Assembly: GCA_001769385.1 (NCBI GenBank)
Contig: MEPB01000019.1
Coordinates: forward strand, 248,001 to 312,000
Direction: 5' to 3'
Length of the DNA: 64,000 nucleotides
Source of the DNA: Bacteroidetes bacterium RIFCSPLOWO2_12_FULL_35_15
GTDB lineage: Bacteria; Bacteroidota; Bacteroidia; 2-12-FULL-35-15
Shown in pieces: positions 42,550 to 59,300 of the stretch. Both the position numbers and the translations under genes were made by a program. Within the stretch, counting starts at the first letter, position 1. Each line of letters starts with the position of its first letter. The notes below the pieces were generated by a model. It was given only the letters and a program-made list of their open reading frames with translations, was not told the origin of the DNA and did no database searches.

Positions 42550-44604
42550 TTGCCCCCTATCTTAAACATAATAAAGAGATTTTCGACTTTTGGTAGTTGT
42601 TCGCTTAAACGATTTTTGCTTTTAGCGATACTAGGTTTAATTAATCAGGATTTTTTATCCACTAATTTAGATTCGTTAATTAATTTATTGCCCCAAATAA
42701 AAAACGATTCTGTAAAAATTTCAATGTTAGCAACAGTATCGGAAGAGTGTTCGGAGGTAGATATTTTAAAATATTCGAATCAAAATCTTTTATTAATTGA
42801 AAATGCTTATAACAGAAAATCCATCACATTTGACTACTACGAAACGGAAAAAGCAAGGGCATATAATAATATTGGAGTTTACTATTATTCTGTTTCCGCT
42901 AATTATCTGGAGGCCATTGATTATTTTCTTAAATCAATATCTCTTCTGGAAAAAAAATCAAATTCAAACCAGGACATAGACGAATTACTTTCATCGGCAT
43001 ACAACACGATTGCCACAACGTATTTGAAACTTGATAAATATAAATTAGCTGAAATTTATTTTATTAAAAGTATTTCCTTAGATAAAAAAACGGGGAATAA
43101 ACAATATTTAGCGAATGATTACAATAATTTGGCAGCTTTATATGTTACTATAAATAGCTTTGATAAAGCTTTGCAATATTTTAATTTAAGCCTGGCACTG
43201 GCTTTGGAGGATAACGACTCTCTCGCTATCCGAACAAGGTATTGTAATATAGCAGCACTCTATTTAAGAAAAGGAGCGTATGATCTGGCTGAGGTAAATT
43301 TAGAAAATGGATTCGACTATTTAAAAAACCAAAAAGACAGTTCCTTTTTTTATTTCCCGATGATTACTAAATTCAGCTTATTAACCCAAGTAAAAAATTA
43401 TAAGGAGGCTGAAAAGCTAATACCGTTTTTAGAAAAATTTAAAACCGACAACCTCTCTGATCTTTCAAATTATTATAAATTATTGTATGTTTTTTATGAA
43501 GAAACTGGTAATTATAAATTAGCATTGCAAAACTATAAACAGTATAAAACACTGTCTGATAGTGTGGTTAGTGAAGCCATTAAAAATAAATCTGAAATAA
43601 AACAAATGAGTTTTAATTTTGAGAAAAAACAGCTTGCTGAAAAAAATAAAAACGAAACATTATTTATACAAGAAACGGAAAAAAGGCACAAACAAACCTA
43701 TATAACAATATTTACATTGCTTATTAGTATTGTAGTTGGAGCCTTTTCTATTGTTTTTTATAAAAAATTAAAACTAACACAAAAACAAAATAAAATTATT
43801 GAAGACCAAAAATCAGAAATTACAAACCAGCACCAATTACTTGAAGTTAAAAGCAAAGCCATTACGGATAGTATTAATTATTCCAAAAGTATTCAAACAA
43901 CTTTATTAGCAAACAATAATAAATTTAATTCCTATTTTGATGAAACCTTTCTCATCTATAACCCGAAAGATATTATTGGAGGAGATTTTTATTGGGCACA
44001 CGAAATAGGCAATAATTTATTAATTGTTGTTGGTGATTGTACCGGGCATGGAGTTCCCGGAGCTTTAATTAGTGTGTTGGCAATAGAAGCTTTAAATAAA
44101 ATAGTTGCAACCAATCCCGGTTTAGAAGAGTTAGATGAATTAATAAAAAAATTGCGGGATAACTTCAACCAATATTACGAATCAAGTTCTCTGGTTAGTA
44201 TTGGAGTTGATCTAGGTGTTATTTATGTAGATAAAGATAAAAAAGAAATTATTTTAGCCGGTTCCGGAGCTACAATAACTCAGCTTAAAGATAACGCTCT
44301 CTCAAAATTCAAATTCGATTCAATTAATATTGGCGGAAAAATGCCGGTTAGTTATACTTACCAAACTATTAGATTGCCATTAAATAAGAATGATGTATTT
44401 TATTTATATACGGATGGTATTCTTGATATGAAAGGTGGGGAGTTTTCAAAAAAATTCACATCAAAAAAATTGGAAGAGCTACTTCTTAGCATTACTGATT
44501 TGAGTCTTGCAGAACAAAAAGAGTATATAAACCATGTAATACATCATTGGAATTTTAATTCCGAAAGAATTGATGATATCACCATGTTAGCAATAAAAAT
44601 ATAA
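42550..44604 (+). CDS. TPR-containing SpoIIE-type (PP2C) protein phosphatase, SiaA-like role
   Basis: 684 residues. The start is a TTG at 42550; no ATG appears before residue about 59. A signal-like stretch (FLLLAILGLINQDF) is followed by about six TPR units at 95-340 (YNNIGVYYYSVSANYLEAID, AYNTIATTYLKLDKYKLAEI). One membrane helix lies near 385-405 (ITIFTLLISIVVGAFSIVFY), then a coiled coil and the linker AITDSINYSKSIQTTLL. Residues about 455-684 are the phosphatase: IIGGDFYWAHE, VVGDCTGHGVPGALIS, YLYTDGILDM and DDITMLAI, holding the metal-binding Asp residues. The layout is a periplasmic sensor with a cytoplasmic Ser/Thr phosphatase. Its stop overlaps the next start by one base (TAATG). Confidence 0.9.
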   Translation: MPPILNIIKRFSTFGSCSLKRFLLLAILGLINQDFLSTNLDSLINLLPQIKNDSVKISMLATVSEECSEVDILKYSNQNLLLIENAYNRKSITFDYYETEKARAYNNIGVYYYSVSANYLEAIDYFLKSISLLEKKSNSNQDIDELLSSAYNTIATTYLKLDKYKLAEIYFIKSISLDKKTGNKQYLANDYNNLAALYVTINSFDKALQYFNLSLALALEDNDSLAIRTRYCNIAALYLRKGAYDLAEVNLENGFDYLKNQKDSSFFYFPMITKFSLLTQVKNYKEAEKLIPFLEKFKTDNLSDLSNYYKLLYVFYEETGNYKLALQNYKQYKTLSDSVVSEAIKNKSEIKQMSFNFEKKQLAEKNKNETLFIQETEKRHKQTYITIFTLLISIVVGAFSIVFYKKLKLTQKQNKIIEDQKSEITNQHQLLEVKSKAITDSINYSKSIQTTLLANNNKFNSYFDETFLIYNPKDIIGGDFYWAHEIGNNLLIVVGDCTGHGVPGALISVLAIEALNKIVATNPGLEELDELIKKLRDNFNQYYESSSLVSIGVDLGVIYVDKDKKEIILAGSGATITQLKDNALSKFKFDSINIGGKMPVSYTYQTIRLPLNKNDVFYLYTDGILDMKGGEFSKKFTSKKLEELLLSITDLSLAEQKEYINHVIHHWNFNSERIDDITMLAIKI

Positions 44605-45566
44605 TGCAAACTACATTAAAAAAAATATACGATAAACAGTTTGAGGATCAAATAGTATTACTTTCCTATTTAGGCGAAGTAAACCAAAAAAATATTGATG
44701 GTATATTGTTTAACATCAAAGAATTTAAACAACAGCAAAAAATAAAATTAATTACATATCCTTACTTTAAAAAAATTTACTCCATTACAACAGAATTATT
44801 GGAGAATATTAAAAAGCATGCTGTTTCCGGAAATGAAAAAAATAGCACGGAAGGGTTTATTGTTATTTTAATGGAAACCAATTTTATAACTATCACTTCG
44901 GGAAATTATATTTTAAAGAAGGAGTGTAGCAGGTTGGAAAACTGGGAAAATGAATCACGGACTCTTTCCATTGAAAGTATTAAAGAACTGTCACGTAATA
45001 GTGTCAAAAACAATAAGGGGCTTTCTGCTAAAGGGGGGGCTAGTATTGGCTTGTCATTGATTTTGCTATGGACAAATAAAAATTTAGAGATTAACTTATT
45101 CAATGCCGACAGTGATAAAAAAATAGTTATATTTACTTCAAAGCTTTATATTATGGAAAAATTATTTATAGCAGCTTCTACATCTTCACCTGAAATTAAT
45201 TTTGACCCGGTATCGAAAAGTTTAACTATTTCAGGTGAATCGCGTCCGGAAGATATTCAATCATTTTACAAACCCATTTTCGATTGGATTGGACAGCTAA
45301 ATGCTTTAATTCATTACACAACAAGTGTTTCCGATAAACCCGTTACAGCATCCTTAATCTTTAATATGGTTTATTTTAACTCCTCATCGGTAAAAGTTTT
45401 TATTCAGATTATTGAACTTTTTTCAGCTATTGAGAAGCAGAATGATTTATGCAAAACAACAATTGTTTGGAGGTATAACACCGAGGATGAAGATGTTTTT
45501 GAAGCAGGTAAAGAAATTGAAAAGATGTGTGGGGTTAAAATGGAGTTTAGTGAAAATAAATTTTGA
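44604..45566 (+). CDS. SiaB-like kinase domain fused to SiaC-like (DUF1987) phosphoprotein domain
   Basis: 320 residues in one unbroken frame. Residues 1-183 match the SiaB-like (DUF6272) ATP-binding family: YFKKIYSITTELLENIKKHA (Asn/His region), SGNYILKKE, GGASIGLSLILLWT as the nucleotide loop. Residues 184-320 match SiaC/DUF1987: MEKLFIAASTSSPEINFDP, LTISGESRPEDIQSFYKPIF, MVYFNSSSVKVFIQIIELF, TTIVWRYNTEDEDVFEAGKE. In Pseudomonas SiaB phosphorylates SiaC in a Thr/Ser loop; here the loop offers S260-S262. The SiaC part keeps its own initiator Met (184), so the genes appear joined by loss of a stop codon. The phosphatase encoded just upstream would reverse the phosphorylation. Function is inferred from the Sia system. 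Confidence 0.82.
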   Translation: MQTTLKKIYDKQFEDQIVLLSYLGEVNQKNIDGILFNIKEFKQQQKIKLITYPYFKKIYSITTELLENIKKHAVSGNEKNSTEGFIVILMETNFITITSGNYILKKECSRLENWENESRTLSIESIKELSRNSVKNNKGLSAKGGASIGLSLILLWTNKNLEINLFNADSDKKIVIFTSKLYIMEKLFIAASTSSPEINFDPVSKSLTISGESRPEDIQSFYKPIFDWIGQLNALIHYTTSVSDKPVTASLIFNMVYFNSSSVKVFIQIIELFSAIEKQNDLCKTTIVWRYNTEDEDVFEAGKEIEKMCGVKMEFSENKF

Positions 45567-57103: not shown

Positions 57104-57128
57104 AATCAATATGTTATATATTTGGTTG

Positions 57129-59300
57129 ATGAAAAAAATATTACTTGCTGTTTTTCTTTCAATAAAGATTGTCGCTTTTGCCCAGAACGATGCTGTTTTT
57201 CGGCTCGACTCTCTTCCAAATGCACAAGAATATACGGTCAATGATCCCGGTCTAATCGTTTTAACATCCTGGAAATATCACAAAGGAGATGACATAAGAT
57301 GGGCCGATCCGAATTTTGAAGATCAATCCTGGATCTTTGTTGCACCGGAATTGAATTTCGATTCGATGCCCAAAAACACGTTCGAAAATATTGCCTGGTT
57401 CAGGTTACATATAGCCGTTGACACCTCTTTTGTTGACAAAACACTGGCACTTCTTATCACACATTCCGGTGCTTCGGAAATATATCTTGACGGGAAATTA
57501 ATTCATTCCTTTGGAAAAATCGACACCAAGAATTCAGCAAATGAAGAGCGTTATGATCCACAGGAAGTTCCGGTTGATATCCGTTTCGAAAAAACAAGAT
57601 CACATGTATTAGCTATCAGGTATGCCAATTCAACAGCCATGTCAGATTATAAAAACAGGAATGTAACACTCGGAGGCTTTAATCTGAAATTTGCTCAGAT
57701 CCGTGAAGCAATAGTTTACAAATATGTTAATTCGAATATCATTACCGCTATTTTTATTTTCTATTTTACTTTTTTTATTGCGTTGAGTTTTTTGCATTTC
57801 ACCTTCTTTCTTTTTTACAGAACTAACAAATCAAATCTTTATTACAGCATTTTTGCAGGGGCATTCGGCACCTATTTTTTATCGCTCGTCATCAGCAAAA
57901 ATTTTATGTTCCCTGATTTTGTAACTTCTATAAATCAGATTGCAAATACATTTTCCGATTTTTATATGCCAGCGCTATTAGCGATGCTTTACAGCATATT
58001 TTACAAAAAAATGCCCAAAATATTTTGGTTATGGATTATTCTGTTTGGTATTGACCTGTTGCTTGCCATTTTTTATAAGGAAGTAAAACAACTAGGCTAT
58101 TTATTATCTCTTATTTTTATTATTGAATCACTCCGCATAATTATTGCATCCATTTATAAAAAACAGGAAGGTTCATGGATACTTGGTTCCGGCATAATTA
58201 CTACTGTTGGTTTTTTTGCCCTTTTCTTTATTCTTTCCATATCAGGAGTTCGGGTAAATTTTAATTCTCAAGGAGGCTGGAGTGGATTATTTTTCGGGCT
58301 TCTTGTAATTTATGTAACATTAAGCATTCCTTTATCAATGACCATTTATCTGGCTCGTGATTTTTCAAAAACAAGTAAAAATTTAGAAAAAAAACTCATT
58401 GAAGTTGAATCTCTTTCTGCAAAAAGCATGGAGCAGGAAAAAGAAAAACAAAAGATCCTTGAAGCACAAAAGGAAATGTTAGAGGTTCAGGTTAAAGAAA
58501 GAACAACTGAAATTGTTGAACAGAAAAAAGTGATAGAGGAAAAGAATAAAGATATCACCGACAGTATAAATTATGCAAAAAGAATTCAGGAAGCCATTCT
58601 TCCGGATCAAAAATTGTTACCGCAAATTTTTTCAAATGCTGCTATTTTATTTAAACCGAAAGATATAGTAAGCGGGGATTTTTATTGGTTTGGCGAAAAA
58701 GACGGGAAGAAAATAATTATTGCAGCGGATTGCACAGGACATGGTGTTCCCGGATCCTTGATGAGCATGATAGGAAGCAATATCCTTAGTCATTTGATTG
58801 TAGAAAAAGCAATTACAAAACCGAATGAGATCTTAAATAATTTACATAAAGAAATAAGAATTGCTTTAAAACAAAATGATGAAAAAACAGAAACACGTGA
58901 CGGAATGGACATTGCGATTGTTTCCATAGAAAATAATATTCTTCAATATGCCGGTGCACAGCGGCCATTATGGATCATTAAAAACAATAAACTCGAAGAG
59001 ATAAAAGCAAATAAATTTTCCATCGGGGGCATACAACACGAAGAAGAAAGGGTCTTTACAAATCACACCTTTAATTTAGAAAAGGATGATTGCATCTATA
59101 TTTTTTCAGATGGATACGCTGATCAGTTTGGTGGAGAAACAGGAAAAAAATTTATGACCAAAAACTTCAAGCAGTTATTGGTCAATATAAATGAGAAGAA
59201 TATTTTGGAGCAAAAAGAAATCGTAAATAAAACGATAAAAAATTGGAAATCAGCGACCGAACAAGTGGATGATATCCTGGTGATCGGAATAAAGATTTAA
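57129..59300 (+). CDS. 7TM receptor-like SpoIIE-type (PP2C) protein phosphatase
   Basis: 723 residues from the ATG at 57129, which starts a good signal peptide (KKILLAVFLSIKIVAFAQ); the ATG at 57111 adds six residues. Residues about 30-200 are a jelly-roll sensor like those before 7TMR-DISM receptors (IAWFRLHIAVDTSF, SGASEIYLDGKLIHSFGKI). Seven helices span about 205-415. A coiled coil and the linker DITDSINYAKRIQEAIL lead to the phosphatase at about 490-723: VSGDFYWFGEKDG, AADCTGHGVPGSLMSMIG, YIFSDGYADQFGG and VDDILVIGI. It would link an outside signal to dephosphorylation of a cytoplasmic target. The linker is nearly the same as in the phosphatase at 42550. Confidence 0.9.
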   Translation: MKKILLAVFLSIKIVAFAQNDAVFRLDSLPNAQEYTVNDPGLIVLTSWKYHKGDDIRWADPNFEDQSWIFVAPELNFDSMPKNTFENIAWFRLHIAVDTSFVDKTLALLITHSGASEIYLDGKLIHSFGKIDTKNSANEERYDPQEVPVDIRFEKTRSHVLAIRYANSTAMSDYKNRNVTLGGFNLKFAQIREAIVYKYVNSNIITAIFIFYFTFFIALSFLHFTFFLFYRTNKSNLYYSIFAGAFGTYFLSLVISKNFMFPDFVTSINQIANTFSDFYMPALLAMLYSIFYKKMPKIFWLWIILFGIDLLLAIFYKEVKQLGYLLSLIFIIESLRIIIASIYKKQEGSWILGSGIITTVGFFALFFILSISGVRVNFNSQGGWSGLFFGLLVIYVTLSIPLSMTIYLARDFSKTSKNLEKKLIEVESLSAKSMEQEKEKQKILEAQKEMLEVQVKERTTEIVEQKKVIEEKNKDITDSINYAKRIQEAILPDQKLLPQIFSNAAILFKPKDIVSGDFYWFGEKDGKKIIIAADCTGHGVPGSLMSMIGSNILSHLIVEKAITKPNEILNNLHKEIRIALKQNDEKTETRDGMDIAIVSIENNILQYAGAQRPLWIIKNNKLEEIKANKFSIGGIQHEEERVFTNHTFNLEKDDCIYIFSDGYADQFGGETGKKFMTKNFKQLLVNINEKNILEQKEIVNKTIKNWKSATEQVDDILVIGIKI

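Follow-up and report, generated by a model that had tools for sequence, protein, structure and literature searches.

Gene arrangement and phosphatase

The window, that is, the whole 64,000-nucleotide stretch of DNA analyzed from Bacteroidetes bacterium RIFCSPLOWO2_12_FULL_35_15, carries a gene for a SiaA-like phosphatase followed directly by a gene in which a SiaB-like kinase domain is joined to a SiaC domain (Table 1). An earlier note, made from the sequence alone, had described two open reading frames at 42550-44604 and 44604-45566 with an overlap of one base; both are present there, and the common base sits in ...AAATATAATGCAA.... The linker-free fusion of SiaB and SiaC that the note had described appears as a single frame, stop-free and unbroken between the two domains. 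Pfam profile searches match all of the families that had been named (DUF6272, SiaC, TPR, and SpoIIE), and the proposed check with DUF6272- and DUF1987-type profiles places both halves of the second gene above the Pfam cut-offs. The fusion is confirmed, as are the assigned families.

The product of the first gene shows an N-terminal TPR region (TPR_12, 61.4 bits) and a SpoIIE domain (66.5 bits against a cut-off of 25), with a single strong predicted membrane span between them. The NCBIfam profile for SiaA matches residues 399-683 with 142 bits, below its cut-off of 700. The PP2C domain of SiaA contains the residues D457, D474, G477, D600, G601, and D653 (PMC7647112). All six positions are kept with identical spacing as D479, D496, G499, D622, G623, and D675, D479 lying just ahead of the Pfam match, so the adjoining SpoIIE phosphatase of the earlier note has an intact metal-binding pattern. 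The window contains a second SpoIIE gene at 57111-59300 (+), with the SpoIIE match at C19:306701-307297. Its N-terminal part is different and apparently multi-span, and no SiaB or SiaC gene adjoins it.

Table 1. Position and basis of the features discussed in the text
Feature	Position	Strand	Basis or remark
SiaA-like phosphatase gene (gene 1)	42550..44604	+	684 aa, TTG start uncertain; TPR region N-terminal, SpoIIE PP2C C-terminal
Predicted membrane span of gene 1, ~residues 383-405	43696..43764	+	Best Kyte-Doolittle window 2.61 at residue 385
SpoIIE/PP2C domain of gene 1, residues 488-683	44011..44598	+	Pfam
Base common to gene 1 stop (TAA 44602-44604) and gene 2 start (ATG 44604-44606)	44604	+	
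SiaB-SiaC fusion gene (gene 2)	44604..45566	+	320 aa, ATG start; open reading frame and Pfam
SiaB/DUF6272 half, residues 1-183	44604..45152	+	Pfam, 56.8 bits; fold match 6kko_A
N-box E64-L-L-E-N68 of kinase half	44793..44807	+	E64 in 42/42, N68 in 41/42 aligned sequences
Gly100-Asn101, conserved ATP-site motif	44901..44906	+	G in 42/42, N in 41/42 aligned sequences
Altered glycine-rich lid, residues 143-150, KGGASIGL (family KGGxGLGx)	45030..45053	+	
Codon 182 TAT, where the SiaB TAA stop stands in the paralogous pair C40	45147..45149	+	Inference
Met184, former start codon of SiaC	45153..45155	+	Aligned with starts of separate SiaC proteins
SiaC half, residues 184-320	45153..45566	+	Pfam, 89 bits; fold match 6kko_D
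Ser260, predicted phosphorylation site, Thr68 equivalent	45381..45383	+	Alignment with 6k4f/6kko SiaC
SiaB-SiaB double proteins	L020:8115-9212 (-), L024:7898-9022 (+), L095:1687-2832 (+), L096:4572-5666 (+)		

Domains and fold of the fused protein

In the second gene, the DUF6272 match covers residues 56-172 (cut-off 26.6 bits) and the SiaC match residues 189-315 (cut-off 24.5 bits). The nearest NCBIfam model for the kinase half, "SiaB family protein kinase," reaches 61.8 bits, below its cut-off of 85, which marks this half as divergent. The NCBIfam equivalogs for SiaB (30.4 bits, cut-off 225) and SiaC (56.3 bits, cut-off 150) also score low, and the unfused paralogs in the same genome likewise stay under both equivalog cut-offs.

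An AlphaFold2 model of the fused protein, built with 42 aligned sequences, has a mean pLDDT of 89.2 and a pTM of 0.74. SiaC chains are its top matches in the PDB (6kko_D, TM 0.88 by target length), and SiaB chains are also among the best (6kko_A, TM 0.79 by target length); 6KKO is a crystal of the Pseudomonas SiaB-SiaC complex. SpoIIAB comes next. The Foldseek matches 1l0o, 1tid, and 6m37 stand for the fold classes of the SpoIIAB-SpoIIAA and RsbW-RsbV switches. A chance resemblance is ruled out, as both halves pass the Pfam cut-offs and each matches a different chain of the same crystal. With the final strand of SiaB running to residue 182 and the SiaC fold beginning at ∼187, there is next to no linker.

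The kinase half keeps the N-box and ATP-site residues listed in Table 1 as well as G149 (Gly in 41 of 42 aligned sequences). At residue 147, Gly is found in 40 of the 42 sequences and Ser in the window protein only. Further changes are I151S, A154L, and K156W in the lid region and Y130S elsewhere. Altogether, 18 of 37 conserved SiaB columns are changed in this half, compared to 0 to 14 in nearly all other rows, and it forms the longest branch of the SiaB tree. An unfused SiaB domain, that of the second pair at L029, exceeds it with departures at 21 of 36 conserved columns. Since the ATP-lid motif is altered at G147S and its neighbors, the activity of the predicted kinase half is left in question, a point that the earlier note had not raised, and its action in cis is possible rather than established. 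The genome has 11 further DUF6272 matches, so phosphate could also reach the SiaC half in trans from another SiaB kinase.

The SiaC of Pseudomonas receives a phosphate on Thr68 from SiaB and loses it through SiaA (PMC7647112, PMC7278518). Ser260 of the fused protein aligns with this residue and lies inside the range S260-S262, where the earlier note had placed the site. Of the 42 sequences in the family alignment, 31 have Thr and 11 have Ser at this position; both Ser260 and Ser262 are conserved, the latter being invariant. The SiaC half is intact at every site that is invariant in the family alignment.

Junction of the two domains

Codons 180-185 of the fused gene read AAG CTT TAT ATT ATG GAA. 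Both the last strand of SiaB (KIVIFTSKLYI) and the N terminus of SiaC (MEKLFIAAST) are in the correct frame, and a hidden frameshift near the junction is ruled out, as neither domain continues in either of the other frames. Met184, which the earlier note had taken for the retained initiator of SiaC, does align with the Met at which separate SiaC proteins begin. The paralogous pair C40 of the same genome, which also lies in one frame, has TAA ATT ATG GA where the window has TAT ATT ATG GA. In nine other stretches of the genome (∼130 kb), the pattern TA[AT]ATTATGGA turned up at two places, where the SiaC genes of C40 and C22 start, and nowhere else. To judge by the sequence, the fusion most likely arose by loss of one stop codon between adjacent in-frame genes. 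As the junction pattern recurs only at these two SiaC starts, a single A to T change in the stop codon would be the simplest origin; with no close unfused ortholog to compare, this origin stays an inference.

Distribution of fused and separate forms

The fused form is rare. An ortholog was not found in 36 genomes of the genus, so there is no evolutionary proof of selection keeping the fusion. Where the matches listed for relatives span both domains, an in-frame stop separates these, and only the window protein has none. Among the matches listed for 396 genomes of the class, 3 of ∼115 in-frame SiaB-SiaC pairs, counted by hand, are stop-free, and SiaB and SiaC are separate in the other ∼112. A phylum sample of 392 genomes gave no further fusions among the matches listed. 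These counts are lower bounds from fewer than 1,000 sampled genomes, with at most 6 candidates per genome scored in the large scans. A scan of named contigs gave relatives of the SiaC half only, all in Bacteroidota records. The literature search yielded nothing on SiaB or SiaC in Bacteroidetes or on fused forms.

The two other stop-free pairs come from the genomes G384 and G146 and show 25% and 18% identity, respectively, with the window protein. The G384 fusion (L093, 319 aa) starts 38 bases behind a SpoIIE phosphatase gene and has a canonical kinase lid, while the G146 fusion (L094, 308 aa) has no neighboring phosphatase. Of the conserved columns, 12 of 35 are changed in the kinase domain of the former and 14 of 37 in that of the latter. 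The G384 fusion does not recur among 80 relatives of its genome, nor does that of G146 among 35 genomes of its family. The fusions appear to be repeated and lineage-specific and are probably young. Both other fusions share with the window protein the domain order in one chain, and G384 also has the phosphatase directly upstream; unlike the window protein, they lack the Met where SiaC begins, retain Gly at position 147, and carry Thr at the site, and the linker of G384 is longer. The "two-gene partner-switch module" of the earlier note is a fair name for the anatomy, which recurs in a distant genome.

A different architecture, SiaB-SiaB double proteins of 364 to 381 aa followed by a separate SiaC, occurs in the genome of the window as well as in distant ones and is apparently more widespread than the SiaB-SiaC fusion. 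SiaC-SpoIIE fusions had been suspected from frames of ∼500 aa, which proved wrong in the two loci inspected (L095 and L096); both contain SiaB-SiaB double proteins and then a separate SiaC.

Genomic context and output

Profile searches of the genome give 12 DUF6272 and 15 SiaC matches in ∼10 SiaB/SiaC loci, besides 52 SpoIIE domains; most of these phosphatases have no adjoining SiaC partner. The genome holds two SiaB-SiaB double proteins and one SiaC-SiaC double protein (273 aa, L024:12427-13248 [-]), in whose first copy the N-[ST]-S site motif is lost, the sequence there reading PDNES. At L018:6859-7962 (-), a SiaC domain follows ∼245 residues without any Pfam match; two SiaB genes, one SiaC gene, and one SpoIIE gene complete this cluster. 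A SiaC-like stretch with 8 in-frame stops lies right behind an intact SiaB at G000:C70:96194-96541 (+) in the genome of the window and is a probable pseudogene.

The cyclase SiaD of Pseudomonas is activated by SiaC in its unphosphorylated form (PMC8457831, PMC7278518), and control of this diguanylate cyclase is the only role of SiaABC in the literature found. The absence of a nearby cyclase, pointed out earlier, is borne out and extends to the whole assembly (99.4% complete, 110 contigs), in which the profile search gave no GGDEF match. This is not peculiar to the locus, since out of 14 further genomes of the class with SiaB/SiaC, 13, including G384 and G146, also have no match. The exception is G002 with two matches, both in one open frame of 1,011 aa (C7:15031-16224). 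Because genomes with SiaB/SiaC pairs mostly show no GGDEF protein, Bacteroidia probably use SiaC for something other than diguanylate cyclase control. By eye, no recurrent neighbor genes emerged as output candidates in nine other genome stretches, and no sigma factor gene adjoining the module was recognized among the listed open reading frames.

Proposed mechanism and alternatives

The best explanation for the locus, with about an even chance of being right, is a partner switch of the SiaABC type reduced to two genes. The membrane phosphatase would probably sense a signal via its TPR region and remove the phosphate from Ser260. The second chain would carry both the antagonist (the SiaB kinase domain) and the switch protein (the SiaC domain), with Ser260 phosphorylated either by the kinase domain tethered to it or by a different SiaB. 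Depending on its phosphorylation, the SiaC half would differ in the binding of a partner other than a diguanylate cyclase. Tethering would set kinase and substrate at a ratio of 1:1 and at a high local concentration, so that the switch would rest in the phosphorylated state, with its output set by the phosphatase. A stricter form is rather doubtful: a self-contained intramolecular switch in which the tethered kinase phosphorylates its own SiaC and only the phosphatase carries the signal, with an output other than c-di-GMP, in a lineage with multiplied SiaABC systems that is apparently cyclase-free. The earlier interpretation stands in its anatomy, families, adjoining phosphatase, and lack of a nearby cyclase; its proposal of a kinase acting on its own SiaC is unproven.

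The divergence of the kinase half bears on a tentative alternative, in which this half is a pseudokinase for docking or dimerization and SiaC is phosphorylated in trans by another SiaB, giving cross-talk between switches. The Ser in place of the lid Gly147, the four other changes, the 18 of 37 conserved columns lost, and the longest branch of the tree point this way, as do the 11 further DUF6272 matches. However, E64, N68, G100, N101, and G149 are kept, one Gly to Ser change in the lid need not abolish ATP binding, and the unfused SiaB domain at L029 is even more divergent. The same lid changes, taken with the loss of the stop, could also signal the decay of a redundant copy among ∼10 switches. 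The many paralogs, one of them clearly broken (the SiaC at C70:96194), and the lack of orthologs in the genus are consistent with decay, but 320 open codons, a SiaC half intact at its invariant sites, and an intact phosphatase partner make it improbable.

The junction allows two further readings. Internal initiation at Met184 might yield free SiaC beside the fusion, a reading compatible with the others. The fused protein needs no Met at this point, the sequence ahead of it equals two SiaC starts of the same genome save one base, and the Met is lost in both other fusions; a young fusion would nevertheless retain it by default, and a second product is unlikely. In the other reading, codon 182 is really a stop and the genes are separate in the cell, TAT being a sequencing or assembly error. 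TAT and TAA do differ by one base only, and the fusion is absent from the matches listed for the 36 genomes of the genus. Yet a consensus sequence seldom errs at one exact base, and independent stop-free fusions that have lost the internal Met occur in two other assemblies, which leaves such an error improbable.

For the two-gene partner switch, the fusion of kinase and substrate offers one such system in a form that is simple to purify and test. A tagged fusion would also be a good bait for the output partner of the SiaC half.

Comparison with known switches

The module shares with SiaABCD of Pseudomonas aeruginosa a membrane phosphatase of the SpoIIE/PP2C type, a kinase domain with the SiaB fold, the gene order A-B-C, and a switch protein with the SiaC fold whose phosphorylatable residue stands at the start of helix 2. 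It differs in that SiaB and SiaC form one chain, the site is Ser instead of Thr, the sensor is of the TPR type, the kinase lid is altered, and neither SiaD nor any detectable GGDEF protein is present. The separate SiaA/SiaB/SiaC loci of Bacteroidia, ∼9 of which lie in the same genome, show the same families in a similar clustering. There, SiaB and SiaC are often in one frame with one stop between them, which is absent in the window, and most have the canonical lid motif. The anti-sigma switches SpoIIAB-SpoIIAA and RsbW-RsbV are alike in their fold classes and in the logic of kinase, phosphatase, and STAS-like antagonist, but consist of separate proteins with a sigma factor as the output. The module would act like a SiaABC switch and is not a strict SiaABCD system, because separate SiaB and SiaC proteins and a cyclase output were both looked for and neither was found. 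While the SiaABC switch is known, the variant with kinase and target joined in one protein is new, real, and rare.
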